Assembly (NCBI GenBank): GCA_016935565.1
Contig: JAFGQS010000063.1
Location: 1-45,128 of the forward strand
DNA: 45,128 nt
Direction of reading: 5' to 3'
Source of the DNA: Deltaproteobacteria bacterium
Lineage (GTDB): Bacteria > Desulfobacterota > Syntrophia > Syntrophales > UBA6807
This document shows positions 14,544-43,844 of this stretch, one piece after another. The stretch's first letter is position 1; every line of letters begins with the position of its first letter. The position numbers and the translations under genes are program-made. The notes below the pieces were generated by a model, which had not been told where the DNA came from, searched no databases, and worked only from the letters and a program-made list of their open reading frames with translations.

Positions 14544-15959
14544 TCACATCACGCTTACTTTTTTTTCTTTCCCCAGCATATTCAGGACAAATTCCCTGAT
14601 TTCTCCCCATACATGGACGGGATCAGACTGCTGTGACGACACCAATTGCGGATGTTGCTGAAGAGTCTGTGCTGCCACGGCCCCTGCTACTTTGATCCGG
14701 CTTTCTCGTGTTAATGACTGTGCCCTTTTGATTAACTGAGCAGGGACGTTGACCCTGACCTTTATCGTTCCGATTTCTACTTCTCCGCAACCCTCTTTTT
14801 CAATCACCGGCCGGACTTCATCGTCACACTGCCTTTGTTCCACGCTACGAGAAGCTTCTTGAGCCGGATCCGACGATTCTTCAGACACAACATCATTTGC
14901 AATCATGTCAGTTTTTGTGTCTCTTCCGAAATCTTCCGTCATAGTTAAGGATGATTTTTCAACAGACTCCTTCAATTCCACCGGTCTCAATTGTTCAATA
15001 TAGGAAACTCTATTATCTCTTTCATACCCTACCAGTACCTCTCCCGGTGTATGTGCCGGTTCCATTTCCTGATACTGATCCTGGACCACTTCCTTTTCAA
15101 ACCTTTTCCGGGGTCTCCTCCTCTGAATGGCCGGTCCTGTTAATTTGCAAAAGCGTTCCCCGATTTGCCTGACTACATCACCGGTAATTTCACTGAATTC
15201 ATTTGTTTCGCCCGCTTTGAGACACAATTTACTAATCTTATTGATAAGACGAGGGACTCCGTGCTCGGAATGTTCCCACAGCTGAATAAACGCATCGTCA
15301 GTAAAAATCTTCGTCGTTCCTCCGGCAAGTTTCAATCGGGTTTCCACATAATTTTTTACTAAATTTTCAGAATGTATCTTATCGATTCGGTTGTATGTTC
15401 CGATCCGCTGGAACAGATTCTTCCGTTTTGGATGTTCCAAGCGTCGAGCGAGTTCCATCTGCCCTGCAAGGACAACCGTAAAGAGATTGATCAGATCGTC
15501 CTGCATATTGGTGAGGAGCCTCAAACTTTCGAGGGTTGCAGGCGAAATAGCATTTGCCTCGTCAATAAATATGAGGACCCTTCTGCCTTCGTCTATCGTG
15601 TCAAATAACAGTCTGTTGAAGGTTTCCAATAAATCTCCTTTTCTTCCGACATCACATCGTACCCCCGTAAGCTGACCTATAATTTCTTTCAAAAGCTGAC
15701 AAAAGGAAATACCAGGATTGGTAATAAGTGCTATCTTATACTTTTCCTGTTCTAATGAGTCGATGATCATACGAAGCGACAAGGTTTTGCCCAAACCGAC
15801 ATCACCGACAATCACTGCAAGGCTGTCTCTTCCCTCCTCTATGGCAAACAGTGTTTCAGCTATAGCATTCTCCATCGATGCATGACAGTCAACATACATC
15901 GATGGATCAGGAACGTTGTCAAAGGGCGGCTTAATGAGATTCCAGTAGTTGTAATACAT
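14544..15959 (-). CDS. ExeA-like AAA ATPase with conserved C-terminal domain (cassette 1)
   Basis: 471 residues. The N-terminal part is an ExeA/GspA-type AAA ATPase: YWNLIKPPFDNVPDPSMY at 6-22, Walker A GDVGLGKT at 52-59, Walker B VLIFIDEAN at 128-136, the sensor LFTVVLAGQ and arginine-rich HPKRKNLFQRIG. A long polar linker (about 285-385) leads to a C-terminal domain of about 85 residues ending in DPVHVWGEIREFVLNML. The same domain ends the second ExeA-like protein (19905-21389). Unlike GspA it has no membrane segment or peptidoglycan-binding domain. GGGGAGG lies upstream of the ATG, and the HTH gene ends 76 bp before. It is probably a regulatory ATPase; the partner process is unknown. Confidence 0.85.
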   Translation of the reverse strand: MYYNYWNLIKPPFDNVPDPSMYVDCHASMENAIAETLFAIEEGRDSLAVIVGDVGLGKTLSLRMIIDSLEQEKYKIALITNPGISFCQLLKEIIGQLTGVRCDVGRKGDLLETFNRLLFDTIDEGRRVLIFIDEANAISPATLESLRLLTNMQDDLINLFTVVLAGQMELARRLEHPKRKNLFQRIGTYNRIDKIHSENLVKNYVETRLKLAGGTTKIFTDDAFIQLWEHSEHGVPRLINKISKLCLKAGETNEFSEITGDVVRQIGERFCKLTGPAIQRRRPRKRFEKEVVQDQYQEMEPAHTPGEVLVGYERDNRVSYIEQLRPVELKESVEKSSLTMTEDFGRDTKTDMIANDVVSEESSDPAQEASRSVEQRQCDDEVRPVIEKEGCGEVEIGTIKVRVNVPAQLIKRAQSLTRESRIKVAGAVAAQTLQQHPQLVSSQQSDPVHVWGEIREFVLNMLGKEKKVSVM

Positions 15960-19904: not shown

Positions 19905-21389
19905 TTATCCAAATTGGTTTAAAACGACGGTCCTGATTTCCCCCCATATGTGAACAGGATCATCAACATGAGAAACAATCAGCTGAGGATTTTTCTTTAA
20001 TATTTGCGCCGCCAGACTCCCGGCCATCTTGACCCGCTGTTCCCTGGTTGAATATTTTGCCTGTTCAATAACAATGTAAGGAATTTCAATATCAATAACA
20101 TATTTTCCAATTTCTAACTTTTCGATAACCCCTTCCTGTTTCACCATCTTTTCGGATATGACCTCTTGAGCTGCCTCCTTCTCCTCTTCATCCGCCGCCT
20201 CTGCCGGAGCCGTGACTTCAGGTACAGGTTCTTCAAAAACTGCCGACTCAGGAATGATCGCCTCCGATGCTTCCTCTTGAACAACTTCTTTTTCTTCTTC
20301 CTCGACCGTCTCTTCCGGTGTCACGGTTTCAGGTACAGGTTCTTCAATAATTGTCAACTCCGGAACGGCCACCTCCGTTGCAACCTCTTCCACAGGTTCC
20401 GCAGGAACAAAAGCTTCTTCCGGAAGGCTTGTCAGTTCAGCATCGGATTCCTCAGGCATCATCTCGCCGACAATTGTATACCGATCATATGCTGCATCCC
20501 TTATTTCTTCCCGTAAAACGGTTTCATCTGCTTTTTTCCTGGGTCTCCTTTTACCTACGGCAGGGCGGGTCAATCTTTTAAATCGTTCGCCGATCTGATT
20601 GACCACCTCCCCGTTAATGGCATCAAAATGGTTGGTCTCACCCGCCTTTAAAGACAATTTTGCAATCTTGTTGATGAGACGGGGAACACCCTGCTCAGAA
20701 TGCTCGTAGAGGGCGGTAACAGCATCGTCCGAAAAAATCTCCGTTGTCCCTCCTGCATGTTTCAGTCGTGTTTCAACATACGTCTTGACTAATTCCGGAG
20801 ACTCTATCTTATCAATCCTGCTGTACGTTCCGATCCGTTGAAACAGGTTGGCTCGTTTGGGATGTTCCAATCGCCGAGCCAGTTCTATTTGCCCGGCCAG
20901 AACCATGGTAAAAAGATTATTTTGATCTTGCTGCATATTGGTGAGCAGCCGTAAGCTTTCGAGATTCGCAGGTGTGATTGCATTTGCCTCATCAATAAAG
21001 ATAACAACCCGCTTACCCTCATCTAATGTCTCAAACAAGAGTTTGTTAAAGGTTTCTAAAAGATCGACTTTTCTTTTTTCCGTACATTGTGTCCCGGTGA
21101 GCTGACCTATGATTTCCCGTAAGAGCTGAATAAAGCTGATGCCGGGATTGGTAACGAGAGCCATCCTGTACTTATCCTGATCGAGGGAATCGATTATCAT
21201 ACGAATCGACATCGTTTTACCCAGACCGACATCACCAACGATTACGGCAATGCATTCATCTCCTTCTTCAATACCGAACAGCGTTTCCGCTATGGCGCTT
21301 TCCATCGATGCATGACAGTCTACATACATGGAAGGGTCAGGCACATTATCAAACGGAGGTTTGTTAAGATTCCAATATTCATAATACAT
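19905..21389 (-). CDS. ExeA-like AAA ATPase with acidic repeat linker (cassette 2)
   Basis: 494 residues, a clear paralogue of the protein at 14544-15959: the same opening (YWNLNKPPFDNVPDPSMY), Walker A GDVGLGKT, Walker B VVIFIDEAN, HPKRANLFQRIG and C-terminal domain ending DPVHIWGEIRTVVLNQFG. The linker (about 295-415) is very acidic and proline-rich and contains an internal duplication of about 37 residues (two copies starting EEPVPE). The duplicated DNA is seen as the same 19 bp at 20218-20236 and 20329-20347. The start at 21389 is preferred: GAGGAGG lies upstream, and its N-terminus then matches the paralogue. This gives an 11-bp overlap with the HTH gene, so translation is probably coupled. 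Confidence 0.85.
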   Translation of the reverse strand: MYYEYWNLNKPPFDNVPDPSMYVDCHASMESAIAETLFGIEEGDECIAVIVGDVGLGKTMSIRMIIDSLDQDKYRMALVTNPGISFIQLLREIIGQLTGTQCTEKRKVDLLETFNKLLFETLDEGKRVVIFIDEANAITPANLESLRLLTNMQQDQNNLFTMVLAGQIELARRLEHPKRANLFQRIGTYSRIDKIESPELVKTYVETRLKHAGGTTEIFSDDAVTALYEHSEQGVPRLINKIAKLSLKAGETNHFDAINGEVVNQIGERFKRLTRPAVGKRRPRKKADETVLREEIRDAAYDRYTIVGEMMPEESDAELTSLPEEAFVPAEPVEEVATEVAVPELTIIEEPVPETVTPEETVEEEEKEVVQEEASEAIIPESAVFEEPVPEVTAPAEAADEEEKEAAQEVISEKMVKQEGVIEKLEIGKYVIDIEIPYIVIEQAKYSTREQRVKMAGSLAAQILKKNPQLIVSHVDDPVHIWGEIRTVVLNQFG

Positions 21390-21921
21390 AAGACTTAACC
21401 TCCTCGCTTCGGGCAAGATATTCGAGAACGTCTTCCAGCGAGAAACGCCTCCGTCTGCCCATCTTATAACTTCTCATCTGCTTTTCCCTCACGAGTTTCA
21501 TTAAGAACCATTTACTGACCTGCAGCATCCGACACACTTCATCAGGCTTAAGCATCGTTACCGCATGCGCCTTCTGTACATAAAAATTGAGAATAAGTTG
21601 TCCACTTTCTCCTTGATGCACATCGAGCGAAAGATTGCCTGATGTTTGATTCAATAAAGCTCTGACATATTGATTCGATTGCACCATTTCCGATTGCTCA
21701 GGGGTTAATTCAAACGAGAGTATCTGATCACTTTCAGAAGCACGGACCTCGGGAGGGCTGTCTTCTGCTTCATCCCAGCGAATGGTCGCGGGCATTGAAC
21801 TCGATGATAACACGGCCGACCCTCCAGCTTCTCTCATATTAAAACCGGTTATAGACGGTGTTCTATCATCTATTGTTCTAGTTTCTTTCTTTCTTCTTTT
21901 AACGATGCAGATCTTTTCCAT
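21379..21921 (-). CDS. excisionase-type HTH protein (cassette 2)
   Basis: 180 residues from ATG 21921, chosen because GAGAGGGG precedes it and the protein then starts MEKICIVKRRKK exactly like its cassette-1 paralogue. The region after this peptide differs in length and sequence. The shared parts are LTPEQS (72-77), LNFYV (111-115) and the C-terminal HTH (124-170): LKPDEVCRMLQVSK, then YKMGRRRRFSLEDVLEYL. The conserved N-terminal basic peptide is too short for a domain and may be a DNA contact or a docking tail. The upstream 21 residues of the longer frame are rejected. Confidence 0.75.
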   Translation of the reverse strand: MEKICIVKRRKKETRTIDDRTPSITGFNMREAGGSAVLSSSSMPATIRWDEAEDSPPEVRASESDQILSFELTPEQSEMVQSNQYVRALLNQTSGNLSLDVHQGESGQLILNFYVQKAHAVTMLKPDEVCRMLQVSKWFLMKLVREKQMRSYKMGRRRRFSLEDVLEYLARSEEVKSYVL

Positions 21922-24071: not shown

Positions 24072-24388
24072 TACCACCGCCTGGATCGTTGGATCGTGCA
24101 TCTACGGGTGGATATGCCGATCATTATCCTGTAATACCAACCCTGCCGCGGCATTGTGGCGTCCCAAAACACAACCGGGACATAAGAGCCATTCCCGGTT
24201 CTGAACCTATTTCCTGCCATACAAGAAAAGTACATCACGTATCGGGCAATCGCGTATAAACCGATACCGGTGGTGTCCTTTGAAGATCTTTTTTTGCACA
24301 TTCGTAACACATTCCTCATTAAATCTTAACATGCCGCTGTTATGCTGATTGCCAACAGATACTACCTTATACAATGAAGGAGCATTGC
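24072..24388. other. intergenic region with inverted repeat and Pho-box-like array
   Basis: 317 bp without a gene. An 8-bp inverted repeat, AACCGGGA (24173-24180) with TCCCGGTT (24193-24200), could be a terminator-like hairpin for the transporter gene, although no U tract follows. The Pho-box-like array for the next gene is listed separately. Confidence 0.45.
24302..24346 (+). promoter_or_regulatory. candidate PhoB box and -10 for the HAD fusion gene
   Basis: Three 7-bp half-sites spaced exactly 11 bp apart: TCGTAAC (24302), TCCTCAT (24313) and TCTTAAC (24324), with 4-bp spacers. TCGTAAC is identical to a half-site in the pstS array. A weaker TTTTTGC lies in phase at 24291. Ten bases after the last half-site is TATGCT (24341-24346), a fair -10. 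In known PhoB promoters the box replaces the -35 at just this distance. The ATG is 42 bp further on. Confidence 0.55.
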
Positions 24389-25888
24389 ATGAATGAGTGG
24401 ATGCACAAACTTGCAGTTCATTATGAATCCGTCAAGCAAACCTATTCGCATGATAAACTGATTATTCTTTTTGATATCGACGGCACCATATTGGACATGC
24501 GTTACATGATTCTCTACGTTTTGAGATCATATGACCACTATCACGACACGCGCTATTTCAAGAATCTCCGTATTTCCGATATCACGATTCACGAAAGCAA
24601 TATCAACGATTTTCTGCTGGAAATACTGCCGGCACCTGATGAGTGGCAGGTCATCAGTGACTGGTGTATGCATCACTGTTGGTCGACATCAGCCATTCTT
24701 GAATCGCATCGCCCGTTTGCCGGCGTTATGGAAGTGATCCGGTGGTTTCAGATACAACCGAACACATTTGTCGGCCTCAATACGGGAAGACCGGATTTCG
24801 TTAAGCGCGATACTCTGCATTCATTAAACAGAATCGGCATGAAACATAAGGTACATTTTTATGATGACCTTGTTTTTATGAATCCCGGCGGATGGAAAAG
24901 CGACATACCACAGGTAAAGGCAGCCGGTATTCAGTATTTCAAAAATGCAGGATACCGTGTCTTTGCATTCATCGATAATGAACCGGAGAACCTCAGTGTT
25001 GTGTCCGAGGTCGATCCCAACAATGAAATCCTCCTACTTCACGCGGACACGATTTTCAAATCAAAACGTGTCACAATTCCTTCAAGCGCAATCAGTGGCA
25101 ATACATATGACATAAAAGAACTGGTTAACAAGGATAAAATCCCGTCGCACACACAATTTGTGTGGCACAGCATCAATAGTAGTGAAAATCTAAAGCAGTT
25201 TCTGCAGTCCAATGTGACATGGGCGGAATTTTCCATTTGTCTCGACGTCGTTCGGGAAAGCATCATACTATATGATGACGTTCTTGATCATATTCAGCGT
25301 CCATATGGAGAAGACTGTATTTCCCTCGAGGAACTGTTGGTACATTTTCAAGGTTCGAATAAGTCCATGAAACTCGACCTGAAAGAAAACGGACTGCTTT
25401 TAGATAAAGTCGTTGACCTGCTGCAACGTTTTGAGTTCGATAACTCTCATCTCTGGTTTAATGGAAAAATAGAGACCCTCAAAGAAAAAGGGTTTCGAAA
25501 GATAGCCAAGGCGTTTCCCGGATCGATCATACAATGTCCCATTGATTATATGGTCCCTCTTATCATGAGTATACCTTCCAGGGCACTTTCAATTCTCGAT
25601 ATGTTCCATGACTGGGGAATCAATCGATTTTCGGTCAGCTGGAAAACACCGGATCTCCATCTTGTTCTCGATAAAATCGACACCTGGGGCTTCGAAATCA
25701 ACATTTACAACATACCCGACCTCGAATCATTCCTGAAGGCGGTATTACTCTTGCCGACATCGGTAACGACAGATTTTACCTTCTTACGGTGGACGCATCA
25801 AAAAAACCATCATGTTTATAACGGCGATAATCACAGACTTCCGGTCATCACGATTCCGGAACATGAACAGGGAATCAATGGACGGTAA
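24389..25888 (+). CDS. HAD-like phosphatase fused to a menorin/GDPD-like TIM-barrel domain
   Basis: 499 residues from ATG 24389 (AAGGAG six bases upstream). Residues 1-220 are HAD-like: motif I FDIDGTI at about 29-35, motif II LNTGRPDF near 130, a Lys in GGWKSDIPQVK, and FIDNEPEN as motif IV near 198. Residues 250-480 resemble the menorin/FAM151 family (DUF2181), distant relatives of glycerophosphodiester phosphodiesterases. WHSINSSENLKQFL matches their WxHxxNS opening, followed by AEFSICLDV, KSMKLDLKEN, LWFNG and later barrel strands. The catalytic His of GDPD enzymes is not obvious. There is no signal peptide. A phosphate-ester hydrolase of two steps is a reasonable inference, supported by the Pho-box-like array upstream. 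Confidence 0.7.
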   Translation: MNEWMHKLAVHYESVKQTYSHDKLIILFDIDGTILDMRYMILYVLRSYDHYHDTRYFKNLRISDITIHESNINDFLLEILPAPDEWQVISDWCMHHCWSTSAILESHRPFAGVMEVIRWFQIQPNTFVGLNTGRPDFVKRDTLHSLNRIGMKHKVHFYDDLVFMNPGGWKSDIPQVKAAGIQYFKNAGYRVFAFIDNEPENLSVVSEVDPNNEILLLHADTIFKSKRVTIPSSAISGNTYDIKELVNKDKIPSHTQFVWHSINSSENLKQFLQSNVTWAEFSICLDVVRESIILYDDVLDHIQRPYGEDCISLEELLVHFQGSNKSMKLDLKENGLLLDKVVDLLQRFEFDNSHLWFNGKIETLKEKGFRKIAKAFPGSIIQCPIDYMVPLIMSIPSRALSILDMFHDWGINRFSVSWKTPDLHLVLDKIDTWGFEINIYNIPDLESFLKAVLLLPTSVTTDFTFLRWTHQKNHHVYNGDNHRLPVITIPEHEQGINGR

Positions 25889-27276: not shown

Positions 27277-27341
27277 CTGTAACGATACCTTCATGCAATC
27301 CTCATTAAAATGTCATATTATTGTGGCATTATACATATTAT
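27277..27341 (+). promoter_or_regulatory. weak Pho-box-like array
   Basis: Five 7-bp units in exact 11-bp phase: CTGTAAC (27277), CCTTCAT (27288), TCCTCAT (27299), ATGTCAT (27310) and TTGTGGC (27321). The first and fourth are good half-sites; the others keep only the central T and the CAT or C end. The segment TCCTCATTAAA is identical to the one in the array at 24313. Possible -10 elements are ATTATA (27328) and TATTAT (27336). It could drive the gene at 27449. Confidence 0.35.
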
Positions 27342-29925: not shown

Positions 29926-31470
29926 TCACTTGACAACGGCCATACTTATGGCGTCTTGACCGGCATCAGCCATGTTTACCTTCAAGCCCATGAGGAGCAT
30001 TATTTTCTTCGCTATATCGGTGTTGTCATAATATCCGTTAAACAGTGCTGCTCCTTTACCTATGGCCGATGTTGTTACGGGCACGCCCGTATGGGAATAT
30101 GACGTCCATCCCAGGCCGGCCTTACGATTAAGAATATGAGTCAGTTTCACCGTCAGTGGATCGTATCCGCCGTACAAGAGATACTCCTGTGTACCCTCAT
30201 TGATTTCGATATTCTTCATGCTTTTATCGAATGCATCTCGCAATTCGGCAATCTCAAAATCCTTGAGGACCATCGGTCCGTTGCCTTTCATGGTTAATCC
30301 GAAGTACAGTTCTATCTTTGGAATCATATCTTCAAAAGAGGCACCGTCCTTTTTCGATTTCTTATACTCCGCCATGATGGAATCGGTAAAAGCCTGGAAT
30401 GAAAGTCTCTGTCCTTTCAAGACATCAAAATATGACTCATAGACGGTTCCCGCGAACCCGAGGGTCAGACCGCCGCATTCGTGATCGCCGGTCACGACAA
30501 TAAGCGTTTCTTCCGGATGTTTTTCATAGAATGCAAGTGCCCGTTTGACGGCTTCATCAAATGCGATCGTATCTTCGATGGCAGCCATTGCATCATTGGC
30601 ATGGCAGGCCCAGTCGATTTTACCCCCTTCTATCATGAAAAAGAAACCCGCATCACCATACAGCAGTTCAATACCTTTTTCGGTAAATTCCGCCAGTGAA
30701 ATGTCACGGGGCGTTTTATCCATGTCGTAGGGAAGTGCTTCATCATCGGGCAGATTCCTGTTGCAGGCGATTATCTTACCGTCATCCCCTTTGAGTGCAC
30801 GAAATTCAGATTGATCGGTGACGATCCTGTATCCTTTTTCACGGGCCAGTTCGAAAACGTCACCGATGGGTTTCTTGGATTTTTTGCCCGTGGGATCCTT
30901 AAAACCACCGCCACCGAAATAATTAAACCCGCTCTTGACAAGATCATAGGCAATCTCGTGATACATTTTGCGGCTTGGCTGGTGGGCATAAAAACATGCC
31001 GGTGTCGCATGATCAATCGAAACACTTGAAACAATCCCGACTTTCATTTTCCTGTCACGGGCCATTTCCGCTATGCTTTTAACCATCTTATATGCGGGGT
31101 CAACGCCGATATATCCGATATTGGTCTTGACGCCGCATGCAATTGCCGTGGCAGCGGCAGCGGAACCGGTAATGAACCGATCATTGGCAAATGTGGTGGT
31201 CACCCCCTGGGCGGGCAGCTTTGACATGGCCATTTTACAGTCCGACGGCTTGAGTCCCTGAGCCGATGCCATGTATGCTTCGGCAGCGGTGCGCTGGGGT
31301 TGCCCCATTCCATCACCGATAAATAAAAAAATGTACTTTGCAGGCGTCCCCTTGTAGTGCAGGACCTTAGCATAAACAGGTGAAAAACAGACCGACCCCA
31401 TTACAATGAGGCCGGCGAGAAACACTGCACACGCAACAAAGACTGCATTCCTTTTATTGATCTCCTTCAT
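29926..31470 (-). CDS. secreted alkaline phosphatase (PhoA superfamily)
   Basis: 514 residues. A signal peptide (residues 1-34, cleavage near PVYAK) directs it to the periplasm. The alkaline phosphatase metal and nucleophile motifs are present: IGDGMG with D53, TGSAAAATA with nucleophile S103, SIDHATPACFYAHQ, KIDWACHANDA (metal-site Asp and His residues), GDHECGG, and the late SYSHTGVPV His. It releases phosphate from monoesters. AAAGGAG lies before the ATG. A Pho-box-like array is present at 31661-31700, about 190 bp upstream, consistent with induction at low phosphate. It is close to the bacterial 500-residue subfamily rather than E. coli PhoA. Confidence 0.93.
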   Translation of the reverse strand: MKEINKRNAVFVACAVFLAGLIVMGSVCFSPVYAKVLHYKGTPAKYIFLFIGDGMGQPQRTAAEAYMASAQGLKPSDCKMAMSKLPAQGVTTTFANDRFITGSAAAATAIACGVKTNIGYIGVDPAYKMVKSIAEMARDRKMKVGIVSSVSIDHATPACFYAHQPSRKMYHEIAYDLVKSGFNYFGGGGFKDPTGKKSKKPIGDVFELAREKGYRIVTDQSEFRALKGDDGKIIACNRNLPDDEALPYDMDKTPRDISLAEFTEKGIELLYGDAGFFFMIEGGKIDWACHANDAMAAIEDTIAFDEAVKRALAFYEKHPEETLIVVTGDHECGGLTLGFAGTVYESYFDVLKGQRLSFQAFTDSIMAEYKKSKKDGASFEDMIPKIELYFGLTMKGNGPMVLKDFEIAELRDAFDKSMKNIEINEGTQEYLLYGGYDPLTVKLTHILNRKAGLGWTSYSHTGVPVTTSAIGKGAALFNGYYDNTDIAKKIMLLMGLKVNMADAGQDAISMAVVK

Positions 31471-31793: not shown

Positions 31794-32108
31794 TTACGCA
31801 GATTCCAGATACCGAAGGCCTTCATTGACAAACTTACGTTCATTCAAGAGATAGTCAACCATGTTTTCAGATGGTATTTCTTCCTCCATCTGCCAACCGG
31901 CCCCGGTAGATGAAATCGTATAGACACCCCGGCTTTCACACCACCGCATGGTAACGTATCCACCCGTCGTGCCCAGCAACGGGAAATAATAAGAAAATCC
32001 ATTCTCACGTTCTCTTATCCGTTTTGAAAGAACCTTCGCGTCTCTCTTGGACTTTATTTGAAACATTTTTGCTTTCATTGTTCTCAAGCTCCATAGTACG
32101 ATATTCAT
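31794..32108 (-). CDS. small hypothetical protein, last gene of the lipid operon
   Basis: 104 residues, no recognised family. The N-terminal third is basic (KAKMFQIKSKRDAKVLSKRIRERE in parts), the middle is beta-like with aromatic residues (SYYFPLLGTTGGYVTMRWCE) and the end is a charged helix (NERKFVNEGLRYLES). There is no signal peptide. ATG 32108 lies 2 bp after the stop of the Lgt-like gene, which points to coupled translation; ATG 32078 with GAG before it is an alternative start. It belongs to the operon with the Psd-like and Lgt-like genes. Confidence 0.6.
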   Translation of the reverse strand: MNIVLWSLRTMKAKMFQIKSKRDAKVLSKRIRERENGFSYYFPLLGTTGGYVTMRWCESRGVYTISSTGAGWQMEEEIPSENMVDYLLNERKFVNEGLRYLESA

Positions 32109-32110
32109 CG

Positions 32111-33163
32111 TTATATTCGGTCATGCATTACCCGCAGTGCTACATCAGAGTCGGTCACATCACTCCTTCCGGTGTAGAGGAACGTCGCCAGCCATAGGGC
32201 CTGGAGAGAAAAAAGAACGGCCGGACTCCACAGTGATTGCAGTCCTGCAAGCACATCAGGTGCCTGCATATCCGCTCGAGGGATGACAAACAAGAGTGCC
32301 GTGGAGTAACAAACGGCGCCTCCCGCCATAATCTGATAGGAGGATATCTTGTTTTCACCCCGGTAATCGGCACGGAGGAATTCCGACAGAACACGCCATA
32401 CCTGCGTTGTAATGAGTGTTAACAGAAACGAGATTATGAAGTGTTCTTCGAGAAAGAAGTATATACCGGCAACACCGGCACAGCCGTACAGAATCGACGT
32501 CATTGCCTGTATGGGTATAACCTTCTCCCCGTCGAGGCCGTGGGCGTAGGCGATTTTTTTCGTTTTACCCCGAAAGACGAAATAATATTTTTCAAAGATT
32601 CGACGAAGCCACGGAGGGCTTTCGGAAACCGGTTTGCCGTAGCAGCAGCCGAAGCTGATGCAGGCGAGTCGTCCGATTCCTTCACCCAGTGTATATGCGA
32701 TCGAAACTGCCGCCAGTATGGGTATAACCTGCAGGTCGGTTTCATACCATGATGATATCATCCTGTCGGTTCCCCAGACAATCCACGGGATACTGATGAT
32801 ACCCACAAACGATGCTCCGCCGATGGTGAATGTATAGGATTTTTTCTCAACCCATCGAGCGATGCATCTCGAGGAGGGAACGCACACGGCAAGCACGGCC
32901 GATGTCATGACAAGAATAACCGGCACTGGAACTGCGATGGACGCCATGAGGCACAGTAAGACAGTGACGCTGAAGAGATACGCCGTCGCATTGAAAAAAC
33001 CATAGTAGGTGAGATTCAGGCTTTTCCACGTTCCATTTTCCTTTTTTTCCTGCGGTATACACGCAAGGATCTGCCAGCGTTCGGCCGGAAGTGTCTTGAA
33101 CCCCCACGCAAGCAACACGGCCAGACCCATCCCGAGTATAAGCGTAAATATCACGTTAACCAT
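32111..33163 (-). CDS. Lgt-like (prolipoprotein diacylglyceryl transferase family) membrane protein
   Basis: About 350 residues with eight or so membrane segments. Lgt-type landmarks are TYYGFFNATAYLF near residue 52, IGGASFVGIISIP near 114, and GEGIGRLACISFGCCYGKP near 160-178, whose Arg (about 165) corresponds to the catalytic-site Arg of Lgt GRxGNF. VIPIQAMTSILYG matches the HPTQLYE region, and SEFLRADYRGE the C-terminal REFFR motif. The His of true Lgt (HPTQ) is replaced here by IPIQ, and the NF..E part by CISFGCC. It is therefore a paralogue that may use phosphatidylglycerol or a related lipid on a different acceptor. ATG 33163 (AAGGGA upstream) is chosen over TTG 33169; it overlaps the Psd-like stop by 8 bp. 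Confidence 0.75.
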   Translation of the reverse strand: MVNVIFTLILGMGLAVLLAWGFKTLPAERWQILACIPQEKKENGTWKSLNLTYYGFFNATAYLFSVTVLLCLMASIAVPVPVILVMTSAVLAVCVPSSRCIARWVEKKSYTFTIGGASFVGIISIPWIVWGTDRMISSWYETDLQVIPILAAVSIAYTLGEGIGRLACISFGCCYGKPVSESPPWLRRIFEKYYFVFRGKTKKIAYAHGLDGEKVIPIQAMTSILYGCAGVAGIYFFLEEHFIISFLLTLITTQVWRVLSEFLRADYRGENKISSYQIMAGGAVCYSTALLFVIPRADMQAPDVLAGLQSLWSPAVLFSLQALWLATFLYTGRSDVTDSDVALRVMHDRI

Positions 33164-34196
33164 TTTCAATAGTCCCTTTATTACTGATATCCTTTTTATT
33201 GCCGATCCGAGCTCGTACGCTCACTTCCGTTTCAACCAGGGGTCTAACAAATCCCCTGGCAAATCTGGTATGGACACCCGGGCGGTACATGTTTCTTACG
33301 AGATCATCCGAGAAAGAAATCCTGTTTTTTTGAAACAGCAGCACATCCGTTGAACTCCCCGGACGATAGAGGCTCTTGGGCTGTCCCTTCAGTAAAAACA
33401 CCCCCTTGTATACTGCCACGGGATTCTCATAGCGAACGGCACTGTAACACTGGACAATATCCCCGATCATGAGAGCTACGATCTCAATCATTGCAACCAG
33501 ACCGATGCCGGTTCCTCCTTCGACATCAGTATCGATGATTGTCACGACCCTTTTATTTTTCGAGCAGGGTGTCGCAATGTTGACAACAACCGCCGGGTTG
33601 CACGGATGATAAGAACCGGGCAGTTCGTATATGTCGACCACCGTTCCGGTAACAGGAACGTGATTGTAATGATATTTCTCCGGTGTTAATCGCAATACGG
33701 CAAAGTTTCCCCCATGGAAAGCGTTGTGCCACGTGTTTATCGTCTCTCCCAGCAGTTCTTCGTACTCAAAAAATTTGTCTTTCAGGAAGAGCCGTGATGT
33801 TTCTGAAAATGACCCCACCAGTATCTTCGCATCCGCCGGAGATACTACCGCACGGTCATCATCCGGCATGGGTCGTGTTTCCCAGAATCGTATCTTGCGT
33901 TCGAACACGTCGCGCAGACTTTTAAAAGACCCGGGATCATCAACGCACTCACTGAGATCCACACCGGACATCTCGACGAATCGCTTCGCCCCCGCAAGCC
34001 GCGCCATTGTTATACTGTCATAATTGACGTAACCAAGCAGTCGCGACATACGGGCTGATGCGAGTGCCTTAAAGAGTGTGGATGCATCCTCTCTCATGTA
34101 TGAGTAAATAAAATTGATTATTTTGTCTGCAAAAAGCCTTTCCGTCCTGACTTCCGCTGTTTCCCGTTCAATGTACTGATGCATTCGTTTATTCAT
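33156..34196 (-). CDS. phosphatidylserine decarboxylase-like pyruvoyl enzyme
   Basis: 346 residues. The Psd catalytic set is visible: D122 in VVSPADAKI (E. coli SPADG), His residues 176/179 in LTPEKYHYNHVPVTG, and the self-cleavage site G280-S281 in RPGSSTDVLLF in place of LGST. Cleavage would give an alpha chain of about 66 residues with an N-terminal pyruvoyl group. The N-terminal 110 residues are helical and longer than in E. coli Psd; no membrane helix is obvious. It makes phosphatidylethanolamine from phosphatidylserine, or decarboxylates a related lipid or amino acid. It is second in a tight operon: 9 bp after the 813-residue orphan and overlapping the Lgt-like gene. Confidence 0.85.
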   Translation of the reverse strand: MNKRMHQYIERETAEVRTERLFADKIINFIYSYMREDASTLFKALASARMSRLLGYVNYDSITMARLAGAKRFVEMSGVDLSECVDDPGSFKSLRDVFERKIRFWETRPMPDDDRAVVSPADAKILVGSFSETSRLFLKDKFFEYEELLGETINTWHNAFHGGNFAVLRLTPEKYHYNHVPVTGTVVDIYELPGSYHPCNPAVVVNIATPCSKNKRVVTIIDTDVEGGTGIGLVAMIEIVALMIGDIVQCYSAVRYENPVAVYKGVFLLKGQPKSLYRPGSSTDVLLFQKNRISFSDDLVRNMYRPGVHTRFARGFVRPLVETEVSVRARIGNKKDISNKGTIENG

Positions 34197-34205
34197 CGTT
34201 TCTTT

Positions 34206-36647
34206 TTAATCCATGTAAGATGTTGATAACTCCCGGTTCCGATGTATCACCATCAGTAACACACTGATAAGTTTCCTCAATACCTCGGAATGCACTTTCT
34301 CATTAATGAGGTCCGATTTCACCGAGGCGAAGTATTCGGCGGCGCTCCATCCATTTAGTACTGCGTGCAATGCTTGTCTGAGTTCGGAATCGGCGGTTCT
34401 TGCATCAGCATCGAGCAGTGCCAGTTCTTCTTCCAGTACCGTAATCGACTCATTCGTGTGGCGGCGGCTGAGTGTCGTTCGATAATACTCTTCAGCCGAC
34501 CGGTTGAATTCATATCCCGAGACTTTCAGAGGAGATGTCGTACCGATTTCACGAAGAATGCCGTGCTCGATCCTTTTCGCGGTCGCACAGTTATCGGGAT
34601 CGAGTATACGTGCCTCGAGATCACGGATAGTCTCGGATAGACCCAGTATGTCGATCAGATCTGCAGCATCTTCCTTAATGACTTTGATAAGAGCCTTTCT
34701 GTATTCTAAATTGTGGACACGGATATAACCGGGATACCGGTGGCTGTGACGATTTTTTTCGGTTTTCGCGATAATTTTCATGAGAAACCGGTTTTCCGAA
34801 TTCTTCCGAACATAGAATGTGGGAATTCCTATGGCCGTACCGAAAAAAATCTGTCGCCGTTCACTTTCTACCGACGGATCATCAGGTATGTGGTCATGAC
34901 TTATTTCACCCCGAAGACTGTATTTATAGGCAAGCGCCGTCATAAGCGCCTGTAGATTGGTGGCTTCCCCCATATCATCGATAATACTGTGAAAGAGACT
35001 GTAATGCCGACCTTCAAAGCCCGAAAAACCGGAAGACGCATATTGCCGGTTTCTGTACAGGAGGTACATCGTCATTTGAGGATCAAATACACCCAGATCG
35101 GCAAGATCCCGTCTGAGCCGAATATCATTACCCAACGTACCGTCGAGAGCCGGACTTTCATCAGTGCTCATGAGGGAGACGAAGTAATCGATAAGTCTGA
35201 AATCCTGAACAAAATCACCGCGCAGACCGAAAAGCCTGCTGATCATCATATCGAACCACTTGGGACCGAACGGTGTTATAGGCTGGCCGAAAATTTTGAA
35301 CCGTGCTTTTTTCTTCCACCGGCGCCATATCATCCTGAGATGCGTATAATCGAGCTCATGGGGCATGAAACCGAGGGCACGCTCCGGATGAAAATCTGCA
35401 AAATCGAGCCGGTACGGAGCAGCACTGTATGCACCGACAAACAGCGGGAGAAAGTGTTCCGCGATCTTGATGACGAGGTCGCCGAAATATTTCTCATCAG
35501 CTTCCCGGTACCCTGACTTCACATCGCGCAGTAAGCGTGTGAGCTTCCGGCTGCCCAGACTGATATGAGTTCCGTTGTTGGCTAACCCGATATTGGAAAT
35601 GCTCGGCAGTACAAACAGATTGTTTATGATAATACCGGCGTCTTTGAGCTTGATGACCGCGTTCAACTGGCTGCGTGACAGAACCCTATGGCACAGACCC
35701 ATGTAGTCGTATTTTTCCTCACCGCGATCCCATCCGGAAAGACAGGGGTTCATGAAAAGAGTTCGATAAAAAGAATCCGGTATTATCTCATTGAGTATCT
35801 TCTGGCGAACAGGAGGATGAGGAGCAAAATAGATCATAGCTTTCTGACCAAGCGAAATCAGTTGAAGTGCGATATTGGCATACATGATAAGCAGTTGTGT
35901 CAACAGAAATCGAAGCGCTGTTTCACGGGCCAATCCCCGCCCCATTCCGACATCCCTACTTAATAATACCGGCATGAATGAATATGTCTCCGGTGAGGTA
36001 TTATCGTTCAGAAAGTGATGCGCAGCGGCCTTGCCTGCGGAGATGACAAGGGGATGAGCGACTGAACGCGAACTGATTGCATCGATCAGTGCCAGCTTTA
36101 AAAGGTAGCTGATGGGGATTCTCAAAAAATCCTCACCGTTTTTGGTAAAAATAAATTTTCCAACATCACCGCGGCGGAGACTTGACGGGTCACTCTTATC
36201 ATACAGCAGATCGCTTTCAAAAATTTCACTCGTATCGCTGCTCAGCACTGACCGCGGTATGTCAACCCAACTGTTCTCCCATACTCTGCTGGAGTTATCA
36301 TTGAGATACCGGTCCAGCTCTGCTATGATTTTTTTGGGAGCCTCACCTGTTTTCGTTCTTTTGAGTATGTTTTTGTAGAAATTGGACTGTTCAATAATGC
36401 GCGGTAAATCAACGTCCTCTTTTTCCCCCACAACCACGACCTGAAACTCATTTTCAGACCCCGCCGTCGTATCGTTGAGTGAAAAAGGCATTGATTCCAC
36501 CACCTTTTCACTTGATTTGGCATTAATATCAAGAATATCCATAATCCGTGCCAGATAGCGTGATCCCCCGATCTTGTTCTCACTTTTACTATTTCCGATG
36601 CTGATAAGCGGCGGTAATATCCTTATGTCTTGTGCGACTACTTTCAT
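34206..36647 (-). CDS. large orphan protein (813 residues), first gene of the lipid operon
   Basis: 813 residues, no family recognised. There is no signal peptide and no clear membrane segment; the protein is mixed alpha/beta, cytoplasmic or peripheral. Notable segments are HPLVISAGKAAAHHFL (about 198), FAPHPPVRQKIL, LANNGTHISLGSRK (about 356), SAAPYRLDFADFHPE (about 410), GFMPHELDYTHLRM (about 427), WRRWKKKARFK and SVESERRQIFFGTAIGIPTFYVRK (shown in parts: SVESERRQI, GIPTFYVRK). The many His and Asp residues and the ESERR motif suggest an enzyme, but this is only a suggestion. GGGAGGTG precedes the ATG. A Pho-box-like array lies 57-85 bp upstream. Gene order and spacing tie it to the Psd-like and Lgt-like genes. 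Confidence 0.85.
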   Translation of the reverse strand: MKVVAQDIRILPPLISIGNSKSENKIGGSRYLARIMDILDINAKSSEKVVESMPFSLNDTTAGSENEFQVVVVGEKEDVDLPRIIEQSNFYKNILKRTKTGEAPKKIIAELDRYLNDNSSRVWENSWVDIPRSVLSSDTSEIFESDLLYDKSDPSSLRRGDVGKFIFTKNGEDFLRIPISYLLKLALIDAISSRSVAHPLVISAGKAAAHHFLNDNTSPETYSFMPVLLSRDVGMGRGLARETALRFLLTQLLIMYANIALQLISLGQKAMIYFAPHPPVRQKILNEIIPDSFYRTLFMNPCLSGWDRGEEKYDYMGLCHRVLSRSQLNAVIKLKDAGIIINNLFVLPSISNIGLANNGTHISLGSRKLTRLLRDVKSGYREADEKYFGDLVIKIAEHFLPLFVGAYSAAPYRLDFADFHPERALGFMPHELDYTHLRMIWRRWKKKARFKIFGQPITPFGPKWFDMMISRLFGLRGDFVQDFRLIDYFVSLMSTDESPALDGTLGNDIRLRRDLADLGVFDPQMTMYLLYRNRQYASSGFSGFEGRHYSLFHSIIDDMGEATNLQALMTALAYKYSLRGEISHDHIPDDPSVESERRQIFFGTAIGIPTFYVRKNSENRFLMKIIAKTEKNRHSHRYPGYIRVHNLEYRKALIKVIKEDAADLIDILGLSETIRDLEARILDPDNCATAKRIEHGILREIGTTSPLKVSGYEFNRSAEEYYRTTLSRRHTNESITVLEEELALLDADARTADSELRQALHAVLNGWSAAEYFASVKSDLINEKVHSEVLRKLISVLLMVIHRNRELSTSYMD

Positions 36648-36703
36648 ATATGCACACCTCCCGGCAGCATGACCTATTCAATTGAGATTACTATCAATTT
36701 AAC

Positions 36704-36732
36704 ATGACGTTTCTGTTACGAAGATATTACGT
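36704..36732 (-). promoter_or_regulatory. candidate PhoB box upstream of the orphan lipid operon
   Basis: Read on the - strand, three half-sites spaced 11 bp are ACGTAAT (36732-36726), TCGTAAC (36721-36715) and ACGTCAT (36710-36704), with 4-bp spacers. TCGTAAC is identical to a pstS half-site. Eight bases further on is GATAGT (36695-36690) as a -10 candidate; the operon ATG is at 36647. Confidence 0.55.
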
Positions 36733-36937: not shown

Positions 36938-37645
36938 TCAATCAGTATCAATATCAGCAAACTTATAACCAACTCCACGGACTGTCTGGATATAGCGGGG
37001 TTCTGACACATCTTTCTCAATCTGAGCTCTGAGACGTCGTATATGGACATCAACTGTTCGCGGCTCAACAAAGGTTGCATCCCCCCAGGCATGATCGAGA
37101 ATCTGATCCCTGGTATATACCCGACCCGGGCGTCTTGAAAGAAACGTCAGAATCTTAAACTCGGTGGGACTCAATTCAACCCTTTCACCATCAATGGTGA
37201 CTCGATGCGAGGCGAAATCAATACGGAGACCCTTAAACTCGAATTTTTCTTTTTTAACCTGCACTTCAGATGCCTTAAACCGACGCAGAACAGCCTTTAC
37301 ACGTGCAAGCAGTTCCCTGACACTGAAAGGCTTGGTAATGTAATCATCCGCACCCATTTCAAGACCGAGAATTTTGTCGACCTCATCTCCCTTGGCTGTA
37401 ACCATGATGATCGGAAGGTTTGATATCTCTTGATTTTTACGAATGCGCTTACAAACCTCAATACCCTGTATCCCGGGAAGCATCAGATCAAGGATAACCA
37501 AATCCGGTTTTTGTGACTGAACAAGCCCCAAAGCCTCCTCACCATTATAGGCTTTCAGTACAGCGTAACCTTCTCTTTGAAGATTATAGGAAATGAGATC
37601 TACCAGATCCTTTTCATCATCTACTACGAGAATTCTGGCGGTCAT
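36938..37645 (-). CDS. phoB: phosphate response regulator PhoB
   Basis: 235 residues. The receiver domain has the acidic pair D9-D10, phospho-acceptor D53 in ILDLMLPG, the T in MVTAKGD and K of ITKPFS. The OmpR/PhoB-type winged helix (about 135-232) has the typical LSPTEFKIL, RDQILDHAWG and VDVHIRRLRAQIE. It is the last gene of the pst-pho operon, 57 bp after phoR. PhoB binds tandem 11-bp repeats, and such arrays are seen at several promoters in this window. No clear terminator is seen after the stop. Confidence 0.95.
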   Translation of the reverse strand: MTARILVVDDEKDLVDLISYNLQREGYAVLKAYNGEEALGLVQSQKPDLVILDLMLPGIQGIEVCKRIRKNQEISNLPIIMVTAKGDEVDKILGLEMGADDYITKPFSVRELLARVKAVLRRFKASEVQVKKEKFEFKGLRIDFASHRVTIDGERVELSPTEFKILTFLSRRPGRVYTRDQILDHAWGDATFVEPRTVDVHIRRLRAQIEKDVSEPRYIQTVRGVGYKFADIDTD

Positions 37646-42824: not shown

Positions 42825-43646
42825 TTAAAACAGCGGGATGAATCCCTCTTTTTTGACGATGTCCTGACCTTCTCTGCTCACAACATAGTTTAAAAACGAA
42901 GAAACGATCCCCACCGGCCACCCGTCGGTAAACATGAACAACGGCCTTGCTACAGGATATACACCGGACAATGCCGTTTCGACTGATGCCGTCACACCGT
43001 TTACTTTGACAGGCTTTACACTTTTATTCAAATAGCCAAATCCGATGTACCCGATGGCATATTTGTTTTTCGATACGGCCTGGACAACGGCACCATTCGA
43101 GGCCTGCAGCTGAGCCCGGGGTGTTACCTTGGCCTTGTTGAGAATCTTTTCCTCCCAAACTTCGTATGTACCGGAACTTGTGTCACGCGATACCACCACG
43201 ATCTGGAGATCCGGACCGCCCACCTCTTTCCAGTTGCGGATTTTGCCTTGGTAGATAAGGCTTAACAGCTCAATTGTCAGGTCGCTCACCTTATTTGATG
43301 GATGAACAATGGGTACGATAGCATCGATTGCGACACGGTGAGGAACAGGGTATATGCCCTTTGCCATAGCCATCTCGATTTCCTTGTCTTTGATGAACCT
43401 TGATGAGTTTGCAATGTCGGTCGATTTATCGACAAGGGCTTTAATGCCGTTGCCGGAACCGCCGCCGGAAATAGAAATATTAACACCGGAATGACTTTTC
43501 ATATAGGCTTCGGCCGCTGCTTGCGCCACGGGGAGCACGGTTGTCGAACCTTTGACGACGATTGTTTCACCCGCACTAGCCGTACCTAACCCCGCAAATG
43601 CAAGGCAGATAACGGCGATAAGTAAAATGTTCATAATCCTTTTCAT
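42825..43646 (-). CDS. pstS: phosphate-binding protein PstS
   Basis: 273 residues with a signal peptide (residues 1-25, cleavage near ASAGET) for the periplasm. Phosphate-site motifs are KGSTTVLPVAQA (residues 32-43), SGGGSGNGIKAL (about 60) and SRDTSSGTYEVW (about 153). The length matches the compact PstS found in many non-enteric bacteria. AAGGAGG lies before the ATG. It is the first gene of pstSCAB-phoU-phoR-phoB, and strong tandem Pho boxes lie upstream. Confidence 0.95.
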   Translation of the reverse strand: MKRIMNILLIAVICLAFAGLGTASAGETIVVKGSTTVLPVAQAAAEAYMKSHSGVNISISGGGSGNGIKALVDKSTDIANSSRFIKDKEIEMAMAKGIYPVPHRVAIDAIVPIVHPSNKVSDLTIELLSLIYQGKIRNWKEVGGPDLQIVVVSRDTSSGTYEVWEEKILNKAKVTPRAQLQASNGAVVQAVSKNKYAIGYIGFGYLNKSVKPVKVNGVTASVETALSGVYPVARPLFMFTDGWPVGIVSSFLNYVVSREGQDIVKKEGFIPLF

Positions 43647-43701: not shown

Positions 43702-43735
43702 ACTTTACGTGACAAATGTTACATTCACATGACAA
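43702..43735 (-). promoter_or_regulatory. PhoB box proximal to pstS with -10
   Basis: Read on the - strand: TTGTCAT (43735-43729), spacer GTGA, ATGTAAC (43724-43718). Ten bases further on is TAAAGT (43707-43702), a fair -10. A further TTGTCAC (43715-43709) is out of phase by two bases. This is the promoter-proximal part of the pstS control region; the ATG is at 43646. Confidence 0.7.
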
Positions 43736-43782
43736 TACGATGAAGAAACAAAGAAATAGCAACATTATGAATATGTTATATT

Positions 43783-43844
43783 GTTACGAATATATGACAT
43801 GTATGTTACAGTTTGATGACAGTGAGGTTACAATCCCATGAAAT
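43783..43844 (-). promoter_or_regulatory. distal tandem Pho-box array of pstS (six half-sites)
   Basis: Read on the - strand from high to low coordinate in exact 11-bp phase: ATTTCAT (43844-43838), TTGTAAC (43833), CTGTCAT (43822), CTGTAAC (43811), ATGTCAT (43800) and TCGTAAC (43789-43783). The types TGTCAT and TGTAAC alternate. It matches the known layout of PhoB sites (CTGTCAT-like 7-mers with 4-bp AT-rich spacers). It sits about 140-200 bp upstream of pstS. Confidence 0.8.

Follow-up and report, generated by a model that had tools for sequence, protein, structure and literature searches.

A compact operon of three conserved genes

The window analysed here, the whole 45,128-nucleotide stretch of contig JAFGQS010000063.1 (assembly GCA_016935565.1) from a Deltaproteobacteria bacterium of the order Syntrophales, contains a minus-strand operon in which the gene for an 813-residue protein, ORF813, is followed by genes whose products resemble phosphatidylserine decarboxylase (Psd-like) and prolipoprotein diacylglyceryl transferase (Lgt-like). 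We refer to these three genes as the trio. A short fourth gene, orf104, lies at the 3′ end:

34206..36647, minus strand: 813-residue gene (ORF813), encoding a protein predicted to be like an ATP-dependent carboxylate-amine ligase of the gamma-glutamylcysteine synthetase (GCS) fold
33156..34196, minus strand: 346-residue Psd-like gene, pyruvoyl decarboxylase-like (Pfam PF02666, 1.5e-36)
32111..33169, minus strand: 352-residue Lgt-like gene, integral membrane protein (Pfam PF01790, 3e-7)
31794..32108, minus strand: 104-residue gene (orf104), a lineage-specific passenger of the operon

The tight packing reported in a preliminary description of this DNA was reproduced, both in coordinates and in spacing: 9 bp separate ORF813 from the Psd-like gene, the Psd-like and Lgt-like genes overlap by 8 bp if the latter starts at the in-frame ATG at 33163, and 2 bp separate the Lgt-like gene from orf104. 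The same description had counted four tightly packed genes, of which orf104 is not part of what is conserved: a copy with 72.6% identity is found 3′ of the Lgt-like gene at one locus of the same family (L216, genome G005), no further relative was found, and the protein has no Pfam match above cut-off.

Conservation of the trio was surveyed in 155 genomes of the class and in 395 genomes sampled across the phylum, and 60 loci were inspected. Relatives of ORF813 occur in 45 of the class genomes and in 44 of the phylum genomes, two small fragments being left out. The reverse search, with an Lgt-like profile, gave strong matches in 46 class genomes (44 also with ORF813) and 45 phylum genomes (44 shared); weaker matches among the phylum genomes, under about 60 bits, represent ordinary Lgts or fragments and do not enter the count. 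Of the genomes with at least one of the two genes, 44 of 47 in the class and 44 of 45 from the phylum have both. A Psd-like profile recovered 45 class genomes, which are the same ones except for drafts whose contigs are broken. Psd-like and Lgt-like genes lie on the ORF813 strand at 57 of the 60 loci, and at 56 of these linked loci the Psd-like gene lies no more than about 220 bp downstream of ORF813. The three unlinked loci belong to one genus; G133 and G134 have the Psd-Lgt pair on the ORF813 contig at a distance of 12-21 kb, and the third, a draft genome, has it on a different contig. Mismatches of presence and absence are confined to draft genomes, several of which, G081 and G270 among them, have lost a neighbour at a contig end. 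G141 and G146 have the Psd-Lgt pair and ORF813 was not found in them; a sister genus in their family has ORF813 detached. The preliminary description had named homologues of ORF813 scattered without the two partners as evidence against its reading, and the linkage and the concordance in both genome sets did not reveal such scattering. A relative with 87% identity (L016) comes from a deltaproteobacterial metagenome-assembled genome. Searches of plasmid and viral collections found no relatives, so an origin in a mobile element or phage is not supported.

The genomes that carry the trio also carry ordinary versions of two of its enzymes. A second Psd was present in all 15 trio genomes checked and an ordinary Lgt in 14, the exception being an incomplete draft; in the window genome the ordinary short Psd lies elsewhere and is distinct from the operon copy. 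Five checked genomes that lack ORF813 also lack the operon-type Psd and Lgt copies. The coexistence of ordinary and operon copies argues that the trio serves a dedicated pathway and does not supply housekeeping enzymes.

Several observations at individual loci are recorded here. In the closed genome G511, ORF813 is reduced to a remnant of 30 residues (L220:8061-8150), which is a case of loss by decay; the genus-mate G440 keeps the full trio. ORF813 is interrupted by stops in G094. At L117, L118, L120, L123 and L126 a protein of 130-150 residues with a DksA/TraR-like zinc-finger motif is encoded between the Psd-like and Lgt-like genes. What looked like a conserved antisense gene near ORF813 (cluster c10) was rejected as an artefact of longest-ORF calling opposite the Psd gene.

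ORF813 is predicted to adopt a ligase fold

The preliminary description could not place the 813-residue protein and suggested profile and structure-prediction searches. At the sequence level it remains an orphan: a single-sequence search and profiles built from 33 and 62 sequences gave no significant match in Pfam, NCBIfam or PDB. The GCS family profiles (GshA, PF04262; GCS2, PF04107) likewise did not match ORF813 in Pfam or NCBIfam, and no relevant Pfam match was found in 33 relatives. Structure prediction did place it. An earlier AlphaFold model from 33 close sequences had a middle region with a pLDDT of 64 and gave meaningless Foldseek matches, a problem that was fixed by adding phylum-level relatives; the AlphaFold2 model from the resulting 62-sequence alignment has a pLDDT of 91 and a pTM of 0.92. 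Its top Foldseek matches are gamma-glutamylcysteine synthetases (probability 0.97-1.00, E 0.006 at best). VIA-align matched the model to E. coli GshA (1v4g) with a Z score of 16.7 over 415 residues (root-mean-square deviation 4.2), followed by YbdK (15.4), PafA (14.6) and Dop (14.5); besides 1v4g, 18 GCS, PafA and Dop entries scored Z 10-17. Scores then drop to 5.9 for a glutamine synthetase and 3.4 for the first unrelated fold.

Conserved residues are consistent with this assignment, with acidic, histidine and arginine positions on the sheet of the kind that bind metal and ATP in the superfamily. E65, E67, E220, H361, E545 and R547 are invariant in the 62 sequences, and the motifs of GshA find counterparts in ORF813 when both are read in the order of their secondary structure, which, and not a superposition of coordinates, is the basis for equating them with GshA E27/E29, H150 and E328/R330: ERE (27-29) pairs with ENE (65-67), GVHYNFSLP with GTHISLGS (H361), IEVR with FEGR (E545, R547), PYLFGASPA with PLFVGAYSAAP, and TSLRLSDLGY with THLRMIW. 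ORF813 thus shares with the GshA/YbdK/PafA-Dop superfamily a fold of about 400 residues (Z 14-17), an ExE in the first strand, a later glutamate, a histidine in the NGTH strand and an ExR in a late strand. Unlike these proteins, it has no detectable sequence similarity to the superfamily, carries about 300 extra residues that include a helical C-terminal region, and almost always has a Psd-like and an Lgt-like gene linked to it. On the strength of the fold and the invariant catalytic positions, ORF813 is taken as a GCS-fold ATP-dependent carboxylate-amine ligase-like protein, an activity predicted from the model. A role in glutathione biosynthesis was rejected, as PF04107 is missing from 19 of 20 of these genomes and the trio is tied to lipid-type enzymes.

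The Psd-like and Lgt-like proteins

The second gene had been described as keeping the residues of a pyruvoyl enzyme, and these are not only present but fixed: D122, H176, H179, G280 and S281 are invariant in 39 relatives. The protein aligns with E. coli PSD, matches PDB 7cnw at 4.6e-19 and, like other members of PF02666, has the pyruvoyl-forming aspartate, two histidines and a GS(S) cleavage site. It differs from E. coli PSD in reading YHYNHxPV in place of YHRVHMPC and in being a second copy beside an ordinary Psd, and it falls under every NCBIfam Psd cut-off (143.3 bits against 371; 87.2 against 111.75). Tryptophan decarboxylases are also among its relatives, so its substrate may be something other than phosphatidylserine.

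The third gene product is a more distant relative of its namesake. Its Pfam match to PF01790 (30.4 bits; gathering score 24.9) is weak, it falls far under the NCBIfam Lgt cut-offs, and its family profile could be aligned only weakly and in part with 12 ordinary Lgts (E 0.002); as the preliminary description had observed, it has neither the HPTQ nor the NFxxxE detail. The residues essential in E. coli Lgt are Y26, H103, R143, N146, G154 and R239 (PMC13251419). Equivalents of four of these, read from motifs, are kept in the Lgt-like protein (Y26 as Y56, R143 as R167, G154 as G178, R239 as R259), as are those of E243 and R246. Within the family R167 is present in 38 of 39 sequences, and R259, E263, R266 and C170 in all 39, so that both arginines with which Lgt binds its phospholipid are retained. 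Unlike Lgt, the family starts with an additional N-terminal helix and has no histidine fixed throughout and a cysteine at the N146 position in 39 of 39 proteins; a cysteine at that position also occurs in other distant Lgts (PMC13251419).

A further difference concerns charge. The active-site face of the window protein carries 24 lysines and arginines and the other face 1; over the 39 proteins the means are 20.8 (minimum 17) and 2.2 (maximum 5), and the ordinary Lgts of trio genomes show the opposite pattern. By the positive-inside rule, this distribution predicts that the Lgt-like protein is inverted relative to Lgt, whose active site and head domain are periplasmic, so that its own active site would face the cytoplasm. 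In ORF813 and the Psd-like protein the most hydrophobic stretch does not lie near the N-terminus as it would in a signal peptide, and both the ligase and the decarboxylase are therefore expected to be cytoplasmic.

Predicted phosphate control of the operon

The surroundings and promoter of the operon point to regulation by phosphate:

36938..37645, minus strand: phoB-type response regulator (Pfam Response_reg and Trans_reg_C), operon context
29926..31470, minus strand: alkaline phosphatase (Pfam PF00245, 3.7e-69), 3′ of the operon
36703..36731, minus strand: Pho-box-like array in the ORF813 promoter, three 7-bp half-sites in 11-bp steps, 0 mismatches
43706..43843, minus strand: Pho-box array in the promoter immediately before pstS (42825-43646), made up of overlapping matches that have 0-3 mismatches

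Pfam confirmed both flanking genes, which the preliminary description had named, and the half-site array that it had noticed upstream of the operon was found again, 56-84 bp from the 813-residue gene, as CGTAATA-tctt-CGTAACA-gaaa-CGTCATG. When mismatches to the pattern YGTMAYR(N4)x3 were counted across the window, exact matches fell in two places only, the ORF813 promoter and the pstS promoter array, and 13 matches with three mismatches or fewer were seen where 0.63 were expected. The trio lies in a region (22380-44000) that also contains a Na/Pi cotransporter with PhoU domains, PhoH with a PIN domain, YibE, the alkaline phosphatase, phoBRU and pstSCAB; with its several Pho-box arrays, this part of the window, between 22 and 44 kb, can be called a phosphate island.

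Among relatives the signal is weaker. At p<=0.005, a Pho-box-like array was found in 25% of the regions upstream of ORF813, in 12% of those upstream of other genes and in 36% of those upstream of pst/pho genes. The other genes of the same loci served as the control because the array of the window had itself gone some way into shaping the half-site score. Phosphate genes (Pst, PhoU, alkaline phosphatase, PhoH) lie within about 8 kb of ORF813 at 27 of the 60 loci, with 15 of 22 in its own order and 12 of 38 in other classes. Taking array rates and neighbours together, Pho control of the trio, as predicted from sequence, is firm in the window, likely across the order and plausible in more distant lineages, so that the control proposed in the preliminary description is well supported here and moderately so in relatives.

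Elsewhere in the window, weaker Pho-box-like sites lie at 24303-24331, about 43 bp upstream of the gene for a 504-residue HAD-type protein, and at 27278-27317, behind the PhoH gene. The 504-residue protein (24374-25888, plus strand) has an N-terminal HAD-like region with a weak Acid_phosphat_B match; its relatives occur near ORF813 at 8 of 60 loci, and it is possibly a phosphate-salvaging partner. Two similar ORFs for ExeA-like AAA ATPases, at 14544-15959 and 19905-21416 on the minus strand, have near-identical N-termini and are apparently duplicated.

A proposed pathway to an amino-acid diacylglycerol lipid

We propose that the trio encodes a PhoB-controlled pathway of three enzymes whose product, made at the cytoplasmic leaflet, would be an amino-acid diacylglycerol lipid that is poor in phosphorus or free of it, a proposal to which we give about an even chance of being correct. 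The gene linkage behind it is read directly from the DNA, and the ligase fold, the topology and the regulation are computed; from these we infer the substrates, the order of steps and the product. The Lgt-like enzyme would transfer the diacylglyceryl group of phosphatidylglycerol to a small cytoplasmic acceptor, cysteine-like or a similar amino acid and not a lipoprotein, releasing glycerol phosphate. The Psd-like pyruvoyl enzyme would then decarboxylate the phosphatidylserine-like head of this product to an amine. ORF813 would use ATP to join the amine, or an amino-acid precursor, to a carboxylate activated as an acyl phosphate, probably the gamma-carboxyl of glutamate. In a concrete version, diacylglyceryl-S-Cys would be converted to diacylglyceryl-cysteamine and then to N-gamma-glutamyl-diacylglyceryl-cysteamine. 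With two C16:0 chains, the calculated [M+H]+ values of these last two compounds are 628.533 and 757.576. The trio would, we infer, change membrane lipids. A stronger form of the proposal, that this is a new class of phosphorus-free lipid made by an inside-out Lgt that moves the diacylglyceryl of phosphatidylglycerol to a small head derived from an amino acid, a Psd-type decarboxylation of that head and its amidation by a new family of GCS-fold ligase, is put forward more tentatively, at well below even chances.

Some observations weigh against this pathway. H103 and N146, without which E. coli Lgt does not function (PMC13251419), have no counterpart in the Lgt-like protein, whose chemistry may therefore differ from that of Lgt. 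The inverted topology depends on the positive-inside rule, and the basic residues conserved in the head loop may instead serve to bind substrate. Finally, only about one relative in four has a Pho-box that can be clearly recognised.

We considered three alternatives. The trio could lipidate a protein or peptide, with the Lgt-like enzyme modifying a dedicated peptide and ORF813 acting as the Pup ligase PafA does, by joining the side chain of a glutamate to a lysine. PafA and Dop share the ORF813 fold, as their alignment scores attest, and the known acceptor of Lgt is a protein cysteine. However, no small-protein gene conserved with the trio was found among the loci, orf104 having its counterpart in a single related genome; 14 of the 15 trio genomes checked have an ordinary Lgt; and a cytoplasmic active-site face, if correctly predicted, would leave the Lgt-like enzyme with no access to exported prolipoproteins. 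We consider this explanation unlikely.

Remodelling of phosphatidylethanolamine is in our view similarly improbable. Here the Psd-like protein would be a true phosphatidylserine decarboxylase that is expressed under stress, ORF813 would acylate the amine of phosphatidylethanolamine, for example with a gamma-glutamyl group, and the Lgt-like protein would recycle the diacylglycerol of phosphatidylglycerol. The match to true PSDs and the retention of all pyruvoyl-forming residues speak for such a role, but every trio genome checked has a separate Psd, E. coli PSD has YHRVH where this protein has YHYNH, and the product would still contain phosphorus, a poor fit with Pho control. There is, lastly, a small chance that the trio makes a soluble metabolite, a thiol or siderophore-like compound that the Lgt-like protein would transport or anchor, for example, since GCS-fold enzymes normally give small molecules such as gamma-glutamylcysteine and free amino acids are also among the substrates of Psd-like enzymes, as the related tryptophan decarboxylases show, but the two conserved phosphatidylglycerol-holding arginines of the Lgt-like family argue for lipid chemistry.

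The proposed amino-acid diacylglycerol lipid has a functional parallel in Desulfovibrio alaskensis G20, in which phospholipids are replaced at low phosphate by an ornithine lipid made by OlsF and a glycolipid made by Agt (PMC5193443). Both would be phosphate-controlled lipid changes, that of D. alaskensis in a sulfate-reducing anaerobe, but OlsF and Agt are unrelated to the trio enzymes and their products belong to other classes. A literature search, whose coverage excluded preprints and most subscription journals, turned up no publication in which the three enzymes are brought together.

Phosphorus-free lipids of anoxic settings often have no known genes, and the trio operon is a ready candidate. 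A widespread protein family that is named by none of the libraries searched also gains a predicted fold and a likely type of reaction. If the proposed pathway is correct, we know of no earlier case of Lgt-type chemistry on the cytoplasmic side and with a small molecule, and the pathway would explain how these bacteria might recover phosphate from their own phosphatidylglycerol.

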